A DNA stretch of 64,000 nucleotides, from contig JAQBTQ010000001.1 of the NCBI GenBank assembly GCA_027624855.1, forward strand, positions 1 to 64,000, given 5' to 3'. How positions within the stretch are numbered: position 1 is the stretch's first letter; each line of letters starts with the position of its first letter. This DNA comes from Bacteroidota bacterium (lineage in GTDB: Bacteria; Bacteroidota; Bacteroidia; Flavobacteriales_D; Sanyastnellaceae). Below are positions 3,546 to 28,856 of the stretch, one piece after another. Below the pieces are notes generated by a model. It worked only from the letters and a program-made list of their open reading frames with translations, searched no databases and was not told the DNA's origin. Both the position numbers and the translations under genes were made by a program.

Positions 3546-4241
3546 TCAGGGGGTGGGTAGGGCAGCCGTCTCACAAACTCGAAGATACGGACTCCACAAC
3601 TGAAACAAGCTATCATTGATGGGAACCGCATTTCTCAAGTCTTGAATAGAGGACAACGGGTGGTGGTTCCGAAATCGCTCAATCGTTCTTGCTCCTTCTT
3701 GATTGATGTAAGGGTGGGAATGCAATTGATACCATGAAGCAGTATCTACACATAAAAATCGAAAAATACCATTTCCGACGTGAAACCAGGGAATGATTTG
3801 GTCAGCTACATCCGATTTTAACCCCCAAACCTCGCGCAACTGCTCGACTGACCAAAACCCTCCAAGTCGGTCCCGAAATTTGCATACTCTGGAGGCGAGA
3901 ACTGGGCCTAAAAAAGGCAAAGATTCCAGACCTGCACTATCAACGTTGTTCAAGTCAATTGAACCATTTCTAGGCCACTTCGCTCGGTTAGATGCCAACT
4001 TCGCTCGATTCTTTTTCATGACTTCGGGAGCAAAAGAAGTTCCTTGTATTGGATGCTTTTCCTCCAAAGGAGTCACCGGAGATTTCTCCAATGCAGACTT
4101 CAGCAATTGAATCTCATCAACATGAGCCTGACCTTCAGACCAGCCATCTGAGCCCAAATGAAACAAAACTTTAATCCCAAAAACTACCCACGATGCAATG
4201 ACAATTGCATACAGCACTCCATCCTCTCTCCTCATTCCCAT
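3546..4241 (-). CDS. helix-hairpin-helix protein with one membrane segment (ComEA-like)
   Basis: A 231-residue protein with a single N-terminal hydrophobic helix (about residues 9-27, VLYAIVIASWVVFGIKVLF), a polar linker, then tandem helix-hairpin-helix units. The first is IDLNNVDSAGLESLPFLGPVLASR, given here only as key residues N98, G105 and P112 in approximate numbering; a second unit begins near VDTASWYQL. ComEA proteins bind DNA during uptake with such folds, but this protein has two or three degenerate repeats and no other competence gene is nearby, so a DNA-uptake role is only a possibility. It is followed closely by apt. Confidence 0.75.
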   Translation of the reverse strand: MGMRREDGVLYAIVIASWVVFGIKVLFHLGSDGWSEGQAHVDEIQLLKSALEKSPVTPLEEKHPIQGTSFAPEVMKKNRAKLASNRAKWPRNGSIDLNNVDSAGLESLPFLGPVLASRVCKFRDRLGGFWSVEQLREVWGLKSDVADQIIPWFHVGNGIFRFLCVDTASWYQLHSHPYINQEGARTIERFRNHHPLSSIQDLRNAVPINDSLFQLWSPYLRVCETAALPTP

Positions 4242-24030: not shown

Positions 24031-26448
24031 CTAAAGTTCGATAATCAAACCCAATGCAGGCAACACTGCTCCCGTGCTTGGATCCAATTCTCGAACATCA
24101 TAAAATCCTTCAAGCGTAGTAGAAGGAATCGGGGTCCCGTTGGATGGATCGCGAACGACATCCAAAAATGTAGGTTGAGGTACTGGAGCACCCGTCGCGT
24201 TTTGCACCTCAACGAATACATCCAAAGACCATGACTCATAGAACCATTTTTTATCAATTCGAATGTCCAATTGGTGAAAAGCCTTGTTTCGTTCCGTGTT
24301 GAGCAAGCTGTAATCCAATAAGGGTCGCCCATAAAAGTCCCAAGACTCTGTGCTAAAGGATTGCATGTCGACAGGGGTATATGGCAATCCTCCGCTAAAC
24401 AGAAGCCTCGACCCAACTTCCCAGCCCCCTTCGAATTTCTTGCCGCCCGTTAGGCTTAATATGTGCCTGTTGTCCCAGCTTGAGGGGGTGAAACTCTCGT
24501 TTTCCAGGGCGTATTCACTTCGAACAAAGGTGTATGCCAAAAGACCGTACAATCCATTGTACAATCGTTGTTGCAACAGCAATTCTGCACCATAAGATCG
24601 GCCGACTCCATCAAATGTCACAGCTTCGTTTCCAACGACCCCGAAGTCCGCGCCCAGGTTAGCCAAAGCCACGCCTTGCTGCATGCTCACAGGAGCTCCG
24701 TCATAGGACTTCAAAAACCCTTCGATGGACGCCACAATGTTGCGTTTCCCGCCTTCCCACCGAAGTCCCGTAACAAATTGGGTATTGGACATGTACCTGG
24801 CATTCGATCCAGCATTGACGCGGACCTCGTCTTCAGTGTAACCCAATATGGTATATGCCGGTAACTGATGATAACGACCCGTATTCGCATTGAGCGTCCA
24901 ACCCGGGGCAAACGCATAGCTCAGAGACATACGAGGTGATAATTGCTTTAAAGGGTTTTTTAATCCTTCTCCTAGATATGAGCCGTCAATTCGCATGCCC
25001 GTCGAAACGGTCAGACGCTCATCCATCAGCCGCTTATTCACCGTTGCAAATGCCCCGTATTTATGCGCCTTCAAATCGGTCGCGTAATTGACCGGATTCA
25101 GCGTCCCAGAAATGGGGTCGAATCGCTGTTCGGATGTGCTGTTGTTGTATTTGACAAATTCATATGCCGCACCATACATGCCTTCCCACCCATTTTCTGC
25201 AAACACCTTGCGCTCAACCCGAAACTTATTTTCAATTTCCTGGGACAGGTAATCGCGAATCAAGGGATTGGCGTCATCATTATCCAAGTGCTTGTATGCA
25301 CGATTATTGAGCATGTTGCGACTCGCTACAAACGACCATTTTCCATTGTCCTTGTAGTGATCCCATTTGAACCCTTGGGTATAATTCCATTGATTCTGGA
25401 CATCCAACGCCCCCAAGATTGCCACTTGGTCCAAATAATTCGTTGAAGACGTATCCTCAGCTATGGCCAGGTTGAGCTCGAAATCATCCAAGGCGCCAAG
25501 GCCGATGACGGTGATGGCATTTCGATCGTCAGGACGCGCTGTCCACTTGAATTGATAGTCATTGTAAATCGGGAGGAATGGCAATCCCAGCGCTTCGAAT
25601 AAGAACTGCAGATAACTCCGGCGCATACTGAAAATCAGCGAAGAATTTTCTCCAGTTGGTCCTTCAAGCGTTAATCCCAAATCACTTGTTCCCACCACCA
25701 TATTCGCCGTCCACTGGTCGGTTCGGGCCTCCTTGAAACTGAATTCCATGACCGAACTCAACGCATTTCCCCTAGCCGCAGGAAACGCTCCAGCATAGAA
25801 ATCAATGTTTTCAACCAAATCCACATTGATCATACCCACGGGACCTCCACTTGCTCCTTGTGTAGCGAAATGATTAATGTTTGGAATCTCAATTCCATCG
25901 ATATAGAACCGATTTTCATTCGGGGCTCCACCTCGAATCACGATGTCATTCCGAAAGCTCGGAATTGCAGCAACACCGGGAAGTGTGCGTATGGCTCGGC
26001 TAATGTCGCGACCTCCACCAGGATTTCTCTTAATTTCATTGGTACCTAAGCTCCGTACACTTAATGGCGCCTCCGCAACATTTGGCCTTCTAGACCCAAC
26101 CACTTCGGCTTCTTCAATTTCAATGGCAGAGGGCTTCAGACTGACATTAACCACTGCTGGCCGAGCGGGAGTCACCTCAATTTCAAATACCGTTTTAGGC
26201 TCATAACCAACAAAACTCAATTGAATGTTCCTGAGTCCAGGTGGCACCTGGGTTAATTCAAAATTGCCATCGAAATCTGAAGTAGTTCCTATGGATGATC
26301 CCTGCAGAACAATGCTCGCAAAAGGAATCGGTGCATTGGTTTGCTCGTCATTCACCCGGCCGCGGATGATGCCTTTGTCTTGGGCGACTGCCCACGTCAC
26401 CGTTGTGCAAGCGAACACAACGATTAGAAAGACCATCTTTTTTGTCAT
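24031..26448 (-). CDS. TonB-dependent outer membrane receptor
   Basis: An 805-residue receptor. A signal peptide (MTKKMVFLIVVFACTTVTWAVAQ) precedes a carboxypeptidase-regulatory-like domain (IIRGRVNDEQTNAPIPFASI, about 25-105), a TonB plug (about 115-230, RSLGTNEIKRNPGG and RGGAPNENRFYIDGIEIP), and a C-terminal beta barrel. No SusD partner is adjacent, so it may act alone on siderophores, cofactors or short oligomers rather than as a SusC. The C-terminus ends PALGLIIEL, with terminal hydrophobic residue as expected for a barrel. Substrate not determinable. Confidence 0.9.
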   Translation of the reverse strand: MTKKMVFLIVVFACTTVTWAVAQDKGIIRGRVNDEQTNAPIPFASIVLQGSSIGTTSDFDGNFELTQVPPGLRNIQLSFVGYEPKTVFEIEVTPARPAVVNVSLKPSAIEIEEAEVVGSRRPNVAEAPLSVRSLGTNEIKRNPGGGRDISRAIRTLPGVAAIPSFRNDIVIRGGAPNENRFYIDGIEIPNINHFATQGASGGPVGMINVDLVENIDFYAGAFPAARGNALSSVMEFSFKEARTDQWTANMVVGTSDLGLTLEGPTGENSSLIFSMRRSYLQFLFEALGLPFLPIYNDYQFKWTARPDDRNAITVIGLGALDDFELNLAIAEDTSSTNYLDQVAILGALDVQNQWNYTQGFKWDHYKDNGKWSFVASRNMLNNRAYKHLDNDDANPLIRDYLSQEIENKFRVERKVFAENGWEGMYGAAYEFVKYNNSTSEQRFDPISGTLNPVNYATDLKAHKYGAFATVNKRLMDERLTVSTGMRIDGSYLGEGLKNPLKQLSPRMSLSYAFAPGWTLNANTGRYHQLPAYTILGYTEDEVRVNAGSNARYMSNTQFVTGLRWEGGKRNIVASIEGFLKSYDGAPVSMQQGVALANLGADFGVVGNEAVTFDGVGRSYGAELLLQQRLYNGLYGLLAYTFVRSEYALENESFTPSSWDNRHILSLTGGKKFEGGWEVGSRLLFSGGLPYTPVDMQSFSTESWDFYGRPLLDYSLLNTERNKAFHQLDIRIDKKWFYESWSLDVFVEVQNATGAPVPQPTFLDVVRDPSNGTPIPSTTLEGFYDVRELDPSTGAVLPALGLIIEL

Positions 26449-26557
26449 GGTAACGTAACAAACGAACGTGTTATCCGTTCAAACTGGCCTTCGTTTTTTT
26501 TCGAAAAATTTGCCATAGAAAAACCAAACACGAACCTGGGTTGCTCGAATTTGAGCA

Positions 26558-28354
26558 TTAACCCAATAAATCCAAATCGAGTCGCTTCCTCAATTGATCC
26601 AAAGAAGGATTTTGCTCACACATCGCATCATACCGTTCTCGATCATTCAAGTATTGGGAATTCATCGAATTTTCTTCGGGCAATTGAACTTCTATGGACA
26701 AGTTCAATTCGTCATTTTCAAGCGAATCAGAAAGAAATTGAACCAGCTTCAATCTATTTTCGATCACCTGTTCTTCTTGCAGTTTATTCAATACTTCGAT
26801 CACCAGACCATGTTCACCCTTCTTAATCTGGGCAGCGTGCAACGTAGCCAGGAAGGTGAATTGTTCTTCGGTCTCAATGCTCACTTTCAGCTGTTCCCAG
26901 GCACTTTGGAGTTCATCATCCGTGAACGGCTTGGCCCGAACAGGAATGGAAACATCCGAAGATACCTGAGTCAACGCTTCATCATCAACCAGCGTTTCTG
27001 GCGCAGTGAACTTTAATCTCGACTTACGCACCGCTTGTTCTCCGTTTGTGGAATACGGTCCAACTGCGGGAACTACGGGCTCTTGTTCCACTGACTTGGC
27101 TGCGGCACGTTCCTTATTTAAAGAGACCAAATCAGTCTCGGTTTGAACCGAAGGAATGTCACGCTGACTCTCCGGCTCCCTTTCTACTTTTTGAGAATGA
27201 GGTTTTTGAGCAGGAATTTCTTGAGCAGGGGATCCACTTGACCAGGCATTGGTCACGATGGGTTGGAGCTCAGGCTTTTTTTTTTCGGCCTCATTGAGTG
27301 AGGCCATCTGAAGCATGGTCAATTCAACAAGCAAACGCTGATGGTTACTCGATTTATAGCGAACATCGGCTTCGTTAACCAACTCCATCGCCCGAACCAA
27401 AAATGTCAGATCGACTTCTGCGGCTTGCTGAGCAAACTGTGCTTTGACATCCTCCGTAACCTCCATGAGCGAAATGGTTTGTGGATCTTTGCTGACCAGC
27501 AAATTGCGCAAGTGAGCTCCCAAACCCGTGATGAAATGATGCGGGTCAAAGCCTCGAGCGATGATTTCATCCAACGTCAATAGTGCCTTTGTAACATCAC
27601 CAGCACGAACGGCATCCACAATATTGAAATAGGTTTGCTGGTCTAGAACGTGCAGGTGCTCTGAAACCGTTTGATATGTCAGGACGGTACCCGTAAAGGC
27701 TACCAACTGGTCAAGGATACTCAATGCATCCCGCAGCGCACCATCCGCTTTGACGGCGACTACATGGAGTGCAGCTTCTTCGGCCTGAATGCCCTCCTTC
27801 TCACAAATACCCTGCAAATGAGTCACCATATCAGCGACTGTGATGCGATGGAAATCGAAAATTTGACACCTCGAAAGAATGGTCGGAAGGATTTTGTGTT
27901 TTTCCGTGGTTGCCAACACAAAAACCGCGTGTGGAGGTGGCTCCTCCAATGTTTTCAAAAAAGCATTGAACGCCGCCTGAGACAACATGTGCACCTCATC
28001 GATGATATAGACCTTATATCGACCTTGTTGCGGGGGGATTCGCACCTGGTCAACAATCGACCGGATGTCTTCTACTTTGTTATTGGAAGCTGCATCCAAT
28101 TCAAAGACGTTAAACGCATACTCTTCTGGTTCTCCGGCTTCAAACCCGTTGATTGCCCGAGCAAAAATTCTAGCAGAGGTTGTTTTTCCCACTCCACGTG
28201 GTCCGCAGAATAAATAAGCCTGAGCAACTTGCTCCTGCTCGATGGCCTGCTTCAAGGTTTTTGTGATGCTGTCTTGACCAACTACAGCATCCCAATGCTG
28301 CGGACGATATTTCCGTGCAGATACTGTATAATTGGGAGTTTTAGAAGCGCTCAT
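26558..28354 (-). CDS. dnaX: DNA polymerase III subunit gamma/tau
   Basis: A 598-residue clamp-loader ATPase. The Walker A motif is CGPRGVGKTTS (about 46-56), Walker B is IIDEVHMLS, sensor 1 is ATTEKHKILPTILSRC, and domain III (collar) ends near residue 355. The region between Walker A and the NVFELDAASNNKVEDI segment lacks the cysteines of the zinc-binding module found in proteobacterial DnaX, and is shortened. A run of ten A residues at codons 357-360 and an upstream hairpin suggest slippage to make a 361-residue gamma-like protein. After domain III comes a low-complexity linker (Gln/Glu/Pro-rich) and a tau-type C-terminal domain. Start at MSASKTPNYTVSARKYRP is the normal one. Confidence 0.95.
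   Translation of the reverse strand: MSASKTPNYTVSARKYRPQHWDAVVGQDSITKTLKQAIEQEQVAQAYLFCGPRGVGKTTSARIFARAINGFEAGEPEEYAFNVFELDAASNNKVEDIRSIVDQVRIPPQQGRYKVYIIDEVHMLSQAAFNAFLKTLEEPPPHAVFVLATTEKHKILPTILSRCQIFDFHRITVADMVTHLQGICEKEGIQAEEAALHVVAVKADGALRDALSILDQLVAFTGTVLTYQTVSEHLHVLDQQTYFNIVDAVRAGDVTKALLTLDEIIARGFDPHHFITGLGAHLRNLLVSKDPQTISLMEVTEDVKAQFAQQAAEVDLTFLVRAMELVNEADVRYKSSNHQRLLVELTMLQMASLNEAEKKKPELQPIVTNAWSSGSPAQEIPAQKPHSQKVEREPESQRDIPSVQTETDLVSLNKERAAAKSVEQEPVVPAVGPYSTNGEQAVRKSRLKFTAPETLVDDEALTQVSSDVSIPVRAKPFTDDELQSAWEQLKVSIETEEQFTFLATLHAAQIKKGEHGLVIEVLNKLQEEQVIENRLKLVQFLSDSLENDELNLSIEVQLPEENSMNSQYLNDRERYDAMCEQNPSLDQLRKRLDLDLLG
27275..27305 (-). promoter_or_regulatory. probable frameshift/slippage site in dnaX
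   Basis: On the coding strand: hairpin GGCCTCA-CTCAA-TGAGGCC (27305-27287), then G, ten As (27285-27276) and G. In frame this is GAA AAA AAA AAG CCT GAG. A -1 shift on A AAA AAG reads GCC TGA and stops after one residue. An inserted A gives the same stop; a deleted A reads seven codons and then TGA. The site falls at the junction of DnaX domains III and IV. Confidence 0.65.
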
Positions 28355-28429
28355 TGGTCATGCGAATATCGCAAGGATTCAATGGCGTTGCCAAACATCT
28401 TTATGAACACGTTTCCCACCAATTATCAC

Positions 28430-28460
28430 TTGTTTTTTCAAAGGAATCAACGTACTTTTG
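28430..28460 (+). promoter_or_regulatory. promoter of rpsF-rpsR-rplI
   Basis: TTG at 28430-28432 and TACTTTTG at 28453-28460 are 20 bases apart, a good match to the Bacteroidota -33/-7 pattern. Predicted start near 28467, about 21 bases before the rpsF ATG. It lies in the 133-base divergent gap to dnaX. Confidence 0.65.
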
Positions 28461-28487
28461 CCCCCCATTTAACAAAACCCGTTCTAC

Positions 28488-28856
28488 ATGAACCGTTACG
28501 AAACTGTTTTCATTATGACTCCCGTGCTATCTGCTGATCAGGTAGCGGAAACAGTAGAGAAGTACAAAGCGTTCCTCAAAGAGCACAATGGCATCATTTT
28601 GCATGAGGAATCGTGGGGATTGCGAAAGCTGGCTTACCCAATCCAAAAGAAATCAACTGGTTTCTACCAACTTTTGGAATTTGAGGCCGAGGCTTCTGTT
28701 ATCCTACCCTTCGAAACTGAATTCCGTCGGGACGAGCGCATCATTCGCTTCTTATCGACGCGAATGGATAAACACCATGTGACTTACGCTGAGTCACGAC
28801 GGAATAAATCAAAGGAAGCGCCAGCGGCGACTCCTGAAACCGCCGAAGAGGCTTAA
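28488..28856 (+). CDS. rpsF: 30S ribosomal protein S6
   Basis: A 122-residue S6 beginning [23 protein letters not shown], with [18 protein letters not shown] as the conserved central strand-helix. The C-terminal tail is Ala/Glu-rich ([14 protein letters not shown]), as in many Bacteroidota. S6 pairs with S18 on the platform of the 30S subunit. First gene of the rpsF-rpsR-rplI operon. Confidence 0.97.

Follow-up and report, generated by a model that had tools for sequence, protein, structure and literature searches.

A hairpin-flanked A10 run in Bacteroidota dnaX as a predicted site of programmed RNA-polymerase slippage

How might a dnaX gene with a single uninterrupted reading frame supply both τ and the shorter clamp-loader subunit γ? 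This question is raised by the minus-strand dnaX gene in a 64,000-nucleotide stretch of a Bacteroidota genome (contig JAQBTQ010000001.1; hereafter the window), in which a run of ten adenines, abutted on its 5′ side by a GC-rich hairpin, lies just beyond the collar domain. In the excerpted text of the sources, Thermus dnaX has a slippage site of nine A/T (PMC5009743, PMC1088944) and Caulobacter-type γ is cut from τ by a protease (PMC5009743), a route that would leave an A-run unexplained. Here we describe the anatomy of the site, its retention, reading frame and surroundings in 299 distinct dnaX junctions, and weigh the polymerase, the ribosome, the replication machinery and the protein itself as the reason for its presence.

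The 598-residue frame is uninterrupted and the features of the site are collected in Table 1. The site falls directly after the collar, because the PF12169 match ends at residue 360 and the alignment with the E. coli γ chain 1jr3_A, a solved structure, covers residues 8–353 of the window protein and ends at 353. On the coding strand, the two hairpin arms (27305–27299 and 27293–27287) are followed by a single G (27286), the ten As and a further G (27275), and the τ frame reads GAA(357) AAA AAA AAG(360) CCT GAG. GCC TGA is read after the gain of one A or after a −1 ribosomal shift, and the product then has 361 residues and ends in EKKKA; one A fewer gives AGC, six further codons and TGA, for a product of 366 residues ending in EKKSLSSNPS. 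In the window gene itself, a shift in either direction leads to γ, the two non-τ frames stopping 1 and 7 codons past the shift. The hairpin and run together (31 nt) fold with −12.7 kcal/mol (z −4.9; none of 200 shuffles as good) and, in a 71-nt context, with z −2.3 (2 of 200 shuffles as good); against a synonymous redraw of the upstream codons only, the window hairpin (locus L002) has P = 0.027. A search of Rfam at E ≤ 1 gave no match over 26400–28500. The first-pass annotation, made from the letters of the window, had described the hairpin, the A10, the codons and the frames exactly, and its placement of the site just after the collar domain is borne out by the domain match and the structural alignment.

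Table 1. Features of the dnaX junction in the window, with the related loci that carry an in-frame UAG
Feature	Position	Strand	Evidence
dnaX CDS, τ frame, 598 codons + stop	26558..28354	-	Pfam matches
Collar domain III, PF12169, residues 228–360, site directly 3′	27275..27673	-	Pfam; 1jr3_A alignment
5′ hairpin GGCCTCA-CTCAA-TGAGGCC, 3′ arm one base from A-run	27287..27305	-	Folding; genus covariation
Putative A10 slippage run, codons 357–360, GAA AAA AAA AAG	27276..27285	-	Kept as A9–A13 in 255/299 junctions
TGA closing +1A (or ribosomal −1) frame, predicted γ 361 aa	27270..27272	-	Sequence
TGA closing −1A frame, predicted γ 366 aa	27253..27255	-	Sequence
Linker and C-terminal tail specific to τ, absent from γ	26558..27274	-	Tail profile from relatives
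UAG loci: L303 (=L354), L334 (=L353), L339 (=L355), L356–L365, L368, L369, L374	about codon 365–387		

Runs of this kind are rare in the genome. The window's assembly (2,289,132 bases, 96.63% complete) contains three A10/T10 runs, of which one has as its last base the A of an ATG and another, a T10, precedes the closest plausible gene and overlaps nothing more than a 54-codon frame that has no support. The dnaX run is the sole A10/T10 of the assembly that was found to lie well inside a convincing gene. Within the window there is no A9 elsewhere: the two overlapping matches are both the dnaX run, with 4.18 expected from shuffling.

To place the site among its relatives, we searched for dnaX in 22 genomes of the genus, 114 of the family (103 matched at E ≤ 1e-40), 60 of the order (58 matched), 79 of the class (77 matched) and 70 of the phylum (68 matched), sets that overlap one another. 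A further 80 named loci were added, including Flavobacterium, Aquimarina, Chryseobacterium, Pedobacter, Hymenobacter, Chitinophaga, Prevotella and Bacteroides; the named loci closest to the window protein (62–64%) are from Salibacteraceae and Flavobacteriales MAGs. The 299 distinct junctions are a fetched subset of all dnaX matches, with L229 (no anchor), matches below 30% identity and duplicate junctions excluded, and all locus counts refer to related loci, not to independent events. When the run is taken to be the longest stretch of As no more than 330 nt from residue 325, at least nine As are present in 255 of the 299 junctions and a shorter run in the other 44. Lengths among the 255 are concentrated at A10 (203 loci), with 27 at A9, 22 at A11, two at A12 and one at A13. 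The first-pass annotation had named retention at the codon level as the check on its reading, and for the run this is what we observe: in the window's family, at least ten As are present at every distinct junction but that of L098 (88 of 89), compared with a mean probability of 0.10 that the run codons would survive if synonymous codons were redrawn according to each gene's usage. Named loci without a run are mostly Bacteroidales and include the nine assigned to Bacteroidaceae or Prevotellaceae. Two loci counted as run-less, L172 and L302, have an A10 further downstream, and there the site seems to have moved; in-frame A7 runs lie at codon 455 in L172 and at codons 452 and 472 in L302, with a −1 stop two codons on.

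The hairpin, retention of which belonged to the same check, is also kept, and its position is tied to the point where the run starts. The 28-nt segment ending at the run is in the gene's best fold decile in 55.7% of the 255 run-bearing loci, a share that falls to 18.4% three nucleotides earlier and to 9.0% six nucleotides earlier. Strong perfect stems terminate 0–8 nt 5′ of the run in 129 of the 255 loci, as against 30, 34 and 28 at control sites 60, 90 and 120 nt upstream, with 0 or 1 nt between the 3′ arm and the run in 75 of these 129. When synonymous codons were redrawn with the protein fixed, structure at the run reached P ≤ 0.05 in 34.9% of the 255 loci compared with 6.3% at 150 nt upstream; by set, the share was 42% of 88 loci in the family, 49% of 41 in the order, 34% of 58 named loci and a weaker 18% of 68 at class and phylum level. 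Only about one locus in two has a clear hairpin. Within the genus (14 members), 91.8% of the cells in the hairpin alignment hold standard pairs and three of the seven pairs show two-sided changes. The covariation score exceeds that of all 500 shuffles, although the structure slid by +1 keeps a score of 0.253 versus 0.327, and 22 of 500 shuffles reach the observed number of two-sided pairs. In a second clade, covariation is weak, with one compensated pair, a number reached by 372 of 500 shuffles. Mild fold-prone rises also occur 33–45 nt upstream and 36–48 nt downstream of the run.

The frame in which τ resumes after the run varies among these genes. τ continues in frame in 150 loci; in 72 it takes one A more (or a −1 shift) to reach it, and in 33 one A fewer (or a +1 shift), such that a shift is needed to reach τ in 105 of the 255. 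A profile of the post-run tail agrees on the τ frame in 247 of 248 callable loci (the exception is L304), the remaining seven of the 255 ending early on their contigs. All three registers are found within the window's family (52, 20 and 16 of 88, in the same order) and among named Flavobacteriaceae (8, 5 and 1), and across the 255 loci the run itself occurs in each of the three possible phases with respect to the frame upstream of it. On a 298-tip tree, built by FastTree only, parsimony requires at least 39 changes of frame, or 36 once five doubtful tips are removed, compared with a mean of 91.5 and a minimum of 82 when the registers are shuffled; six of the 43 genera with at least two loci are mixed in register, at one genome per species. 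The lone cases that need one A fewer in the window's genus (L020) and in Flavobacterium (L286) could be homopolymer errors of assembly. Draft contigs of five loci (L019, L047, L048, L089 and L204) end 51–144 bases past the run, as if assemblies tended to break in the adjoining linker. Among run-less loci, 40 of 44 were called frame 0, including L303, which has an in-frame TAG. A simple rule of no run, no shift is weakened by the in-frame TAG of L303, L334 and L339 and by L098 and L309, which have no run of nine and yet, by profile, a τ tail in another frame; decay, assembly error or another device are candidates for these last two.

Whichever frame carries τ, the other two are closed. Both non-τ frames stop within 10 codons after the run in 94.8% of 248 loci, compared with 27.0% of 7647 control positions located downstream in these genes; at run-less loci both are closed in 31.8% of 44, a figure measured at a fixed offset rather than at an aligned site. 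A slipped message would end at once whatever its register, which is the pattern that selection for a defined short product would be expected to leave.

On the strength of these sequence patterns, we consider it likely that programmed RNA-polymerase slippage at the hairpin-flanked A-run yields both γ and τ, by a mechanism that would be of the Thermus type in principle. The predicted layout is that of an intrinsic terminator with an A-run in place of the U-run. RNA polymerase would copy the hairpin, the G and the A10 in that order, so that the A10 would fill the 9–10-bp RNA:DNA hybrid while the fresh hairpin sits at the RNA exit; the hairpin would put strain on the A:T hybrid at its upstream edge, followed by realignment of the transcript along the run. 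Messages with 10 (or 10 + 3n) As would then encode τ of 598 aa, those with 9 As γ of 366 aa and those with 11 As γ of 361 aa. We infer the occurrence of slippage, its transcriptional nature, the straining step and any γ:τ ratio. Our preference for the polymerase is held because PMC5009743, in its excerpted text, describes both slippage driven by a 5′ hairpin and slippage at nine A/T in Thermus dnaX, and because the presence of τ in all three registers among relatives argues for slippage and against a purely −1 ribosomal shift. That distribution supports, short of proof, the same preference in the first-pass annotation. The further expectation of that annotation, that this phylum too has a short subunit, is a well-supported prediction; dnaX genes with A10, for which transcriptional realignment was proposed, had been reported before (PMC3711429, in excerpt).

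Each of the known systems matches the site in part. As excerpts of the Thermus work describe it, T. thermophilus dnaX shares with the window the gene, an A-run, τ in frame, γ from other run lengths and nearby stops in both other frames, and two hallmarks in the sequence, at least nine As at the γ/τ junction and early stops in the two non-τ frames, are found here. The Thermus type is further defined by mRNAs of varied run length and by γ and τ made near 1:1. The present case differs in that A10 rather than A9 is the rule, a hairpin abuts the run, τ occurs in three registers and slippage is, so far, a prediction. A 2013 GeneTack survey listed, for 12 genera, 17 dnaX genes that reach τ by way of a −1 shift; nine of the 17 have A10, and transcriptional realignment was proposed for such two-ORF genes (PMC3711429, in excerpt). 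According to that excerpt, these genes have the −1 shift at the DNA level only, whereas the window gene has τ in frame, and the excerpt contains no mention of a hairpin, which is present here. In the open-licence literature, as covered by titles and abstract openings, we found no report of phylum-wide spread, of the hairpin or of UAG in dnaX; the spread, the three registers and the 5′ hairpin appear to be additions beyond GeneTack. The hairpin has its counterpart in a Roseiflexus IS element, in which, by the excerpted account, a hairpin directly 5′ of T5C5 drives polymerase slippage (PMC5009743). The likeness lies in an inverted repeat, abutting the slip motif on its 5′ side, that would form in the nascent RNA at the edge of the hybrid, and the difference in the motif (T5C5 as opposed to A10), in the gene (a transposase) and in the outcome, a one-base deletion only as opposed to possible insertions or deletions here. 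The window site is thus like the Roseiflexus type and not a member of it, having the 5′ hairpin without the T5C5 motif.

The closest competitor is the E. coli mechanism, a −1 ribosomal frameshift on A_AAA_AAG for which the GAGG within the 3′ arm of the window hairpin would act as an internal Shine–Dalgarno stimulator. Gene and products are the same in E. coli, and the window has A_AAA_AAG in frame with a −1 stop one codon later. Its genome has one tRNA-Lys (UUU) and no CUU among 30/31 tRNA matches, as is the case in E. coli (PMC5009743, in excerpt); Shine–Dalgarno-like tetramers occur near the run in 114 of the 255 loci, with 83.3 expected under the synonymous null. With this tRNA set and this excess, an E. 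coli-like shift could therefore occur in the window itself, where, in addition, the 58 nt from within the run onward fold with z −1.7 (9 of 200 shuffles as good). Across the relatives, however, the direction is wrong: E. coli shifts −1 only, whereas relatives need both directions to reach τ, the 33 loci that require one A fewer (or +1) being out of reach of a −1 shift. Nor is a general 3′ stem-loop apparent, the 50 nt 3′ of the run showing little excess of folding (7.5% in the best 5%, 255 loci) apart from the mild rise at 36–48 nt; there is instead a hairpin on the 5′ side, the excess of which persists at loci without a Shine–Dalgarno-like tetramer (P ≤ 0.1 in 40% of 141). Moreover, an adjacent 5′ hairpin attenuated −1 shifting in a 70S system, according to excerpts of PMC6321510. 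We therefore regard a −1 ribosomal shift of the E. coli type as unlikely.

Other readings dispense with a directed shift. PMC4363877, in its excerpted text, describes ribosomes that pause on successive AAA codons, slide there and afterwards terminate out of frame; sliding on a faithful mRNA, with the frame lost either way and an early stop, would likewise be free of register. We judge it quite unlikely, given that it would leave unexplained why a hairpin stays fixed just 5′ of the run, where it would presumably lie in the path of the ribosome. Homopolymer tracts can mutate by slippage, and the registers do differ among relatives, as they would if the run were a phase-variable contingency tract, with replication slippage in the DNA switching dnaX and the registers representing frozen states. 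Against this very improbable account stand a length held tightly at A10, genera that are mostly uniform in register in the one-genome-per-species sample and a gene expected to be essential. That the run is there by chance, or through selection at the protein level for the lysine stretch that it does encode in the registers seen, with no recoding at all, is scarcely credible: a synonymous redraw would seldom preserve codons that are kept in 88 of 89 family members, the run is found in all three phases with 105 of 255 genes needing a shift for τ, and stops are in excess in both other frames.

A different arrangement is found in part of the Bacteroidales. At the junction of three named, run-less loci (L303, L334 and L339) stands an in-frame TAG, after which the τ tail continues in the same frame. 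In the family of G297, the genome that carries L334, 81 genomes were searched and 79 matched, and 50 junction loci were examined (30 + 20, three of the latter 20 being cut before the junction). TAG is present in 14 of these 50, which with L303 and L339 makes 16 distinct loci (Table 1); other members of the family keep runs of A9–A11, many with τ in the −1 frame. The TAG is invariant in all 16, each of the six preceding codons varies, and the three codons that follow are ATW GCN AGR (Ile-Ala-Arg) in 16 of 16. The τ tails extend 186–254 codons past the TAG and, in the 30 closest pairs, differ at 3569 third codon positions versus 2183 and 1678 at the other two, an excess from which it follows that they evolve as protein. 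Because TAG also terminates the τ frame itself in L361 and L374, and because ARAGORN, given the loci of all 43 above-cut-off tRNA matches in G297, the one genome scanned, identified no stop-reading anticodon (a 44th, sub-threshold match gave no tRNA), simple reassignment of the codon is unlikely. On sequence grounds, the likeliest candidate is programmed UAG readthrough at the dnaX junction, with re-initiation just after the stop as its rival. RNAalifold returned no pairs for the 16-sequence set, and a small stem after the UAG is not claimed, P ≤ 0.05 being reached in 2 of 16 loci compared with 6.2% of 128 controls under the synonymous null.

Further junction elements were noted among run-less genes. 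Bacteroidaceae/Prevotellaceae-type dnaX loci without an A-run (L290, L307, L314, L316, L318, L319, L322, L332 and others) have a GGGC-loop-GCCC element at the junction, at about residue 365–375, with CGGGGCGTAGCCC in several of them and seven Gs in L318. A −1 shift in some of these would read GCG TAG; the element may be protein-driven. In L403, also without an A-run, TTTTGGGGG lies before a stop near codon 380 and a 221-codon frame continues in −1, making TTTTGGGGG a possible slip motif of a different kind.

Returning to polymerase slippage as the preferred reading of the run-bearing genes, we tentatively suggest a broader view, plausible but far from secure, that joins it to the UAG loci. Slippage at hairpin and A10 would render the frame of Bacteroidota dnaX nearly neutral, allowing τ to drift from register to register dozens of times, while the hairpin, the run and the closure of the two remaining frames would be kept throughout; in the UAG clade, after loss of the run, readthrough at UAG AUW GCN AGR would restore the two products.

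In practical terms, an annotator would be apt to take some two in five of the sampled dnaX genes with a run for frameshifted or truncated ones. If the proposal is correct, much of a large phylum makes a short clamp-loader subunit by polymerase slippage, and the signal, a hairpin with A10, is defined and testable in cultured Flavobacteriia. The dnaX loci also provide a natural collection in which terminator-shaped hairpins adjoin A-runs, suited to the study of how slippage is driven by the structure of nascent RNA. γ would then have been reached repeatedly, through slippage, ribosomal shifting, proteolysis and perhaps UAG readthrough, which would speak for selection of γ and would bear on the old debate over its role.
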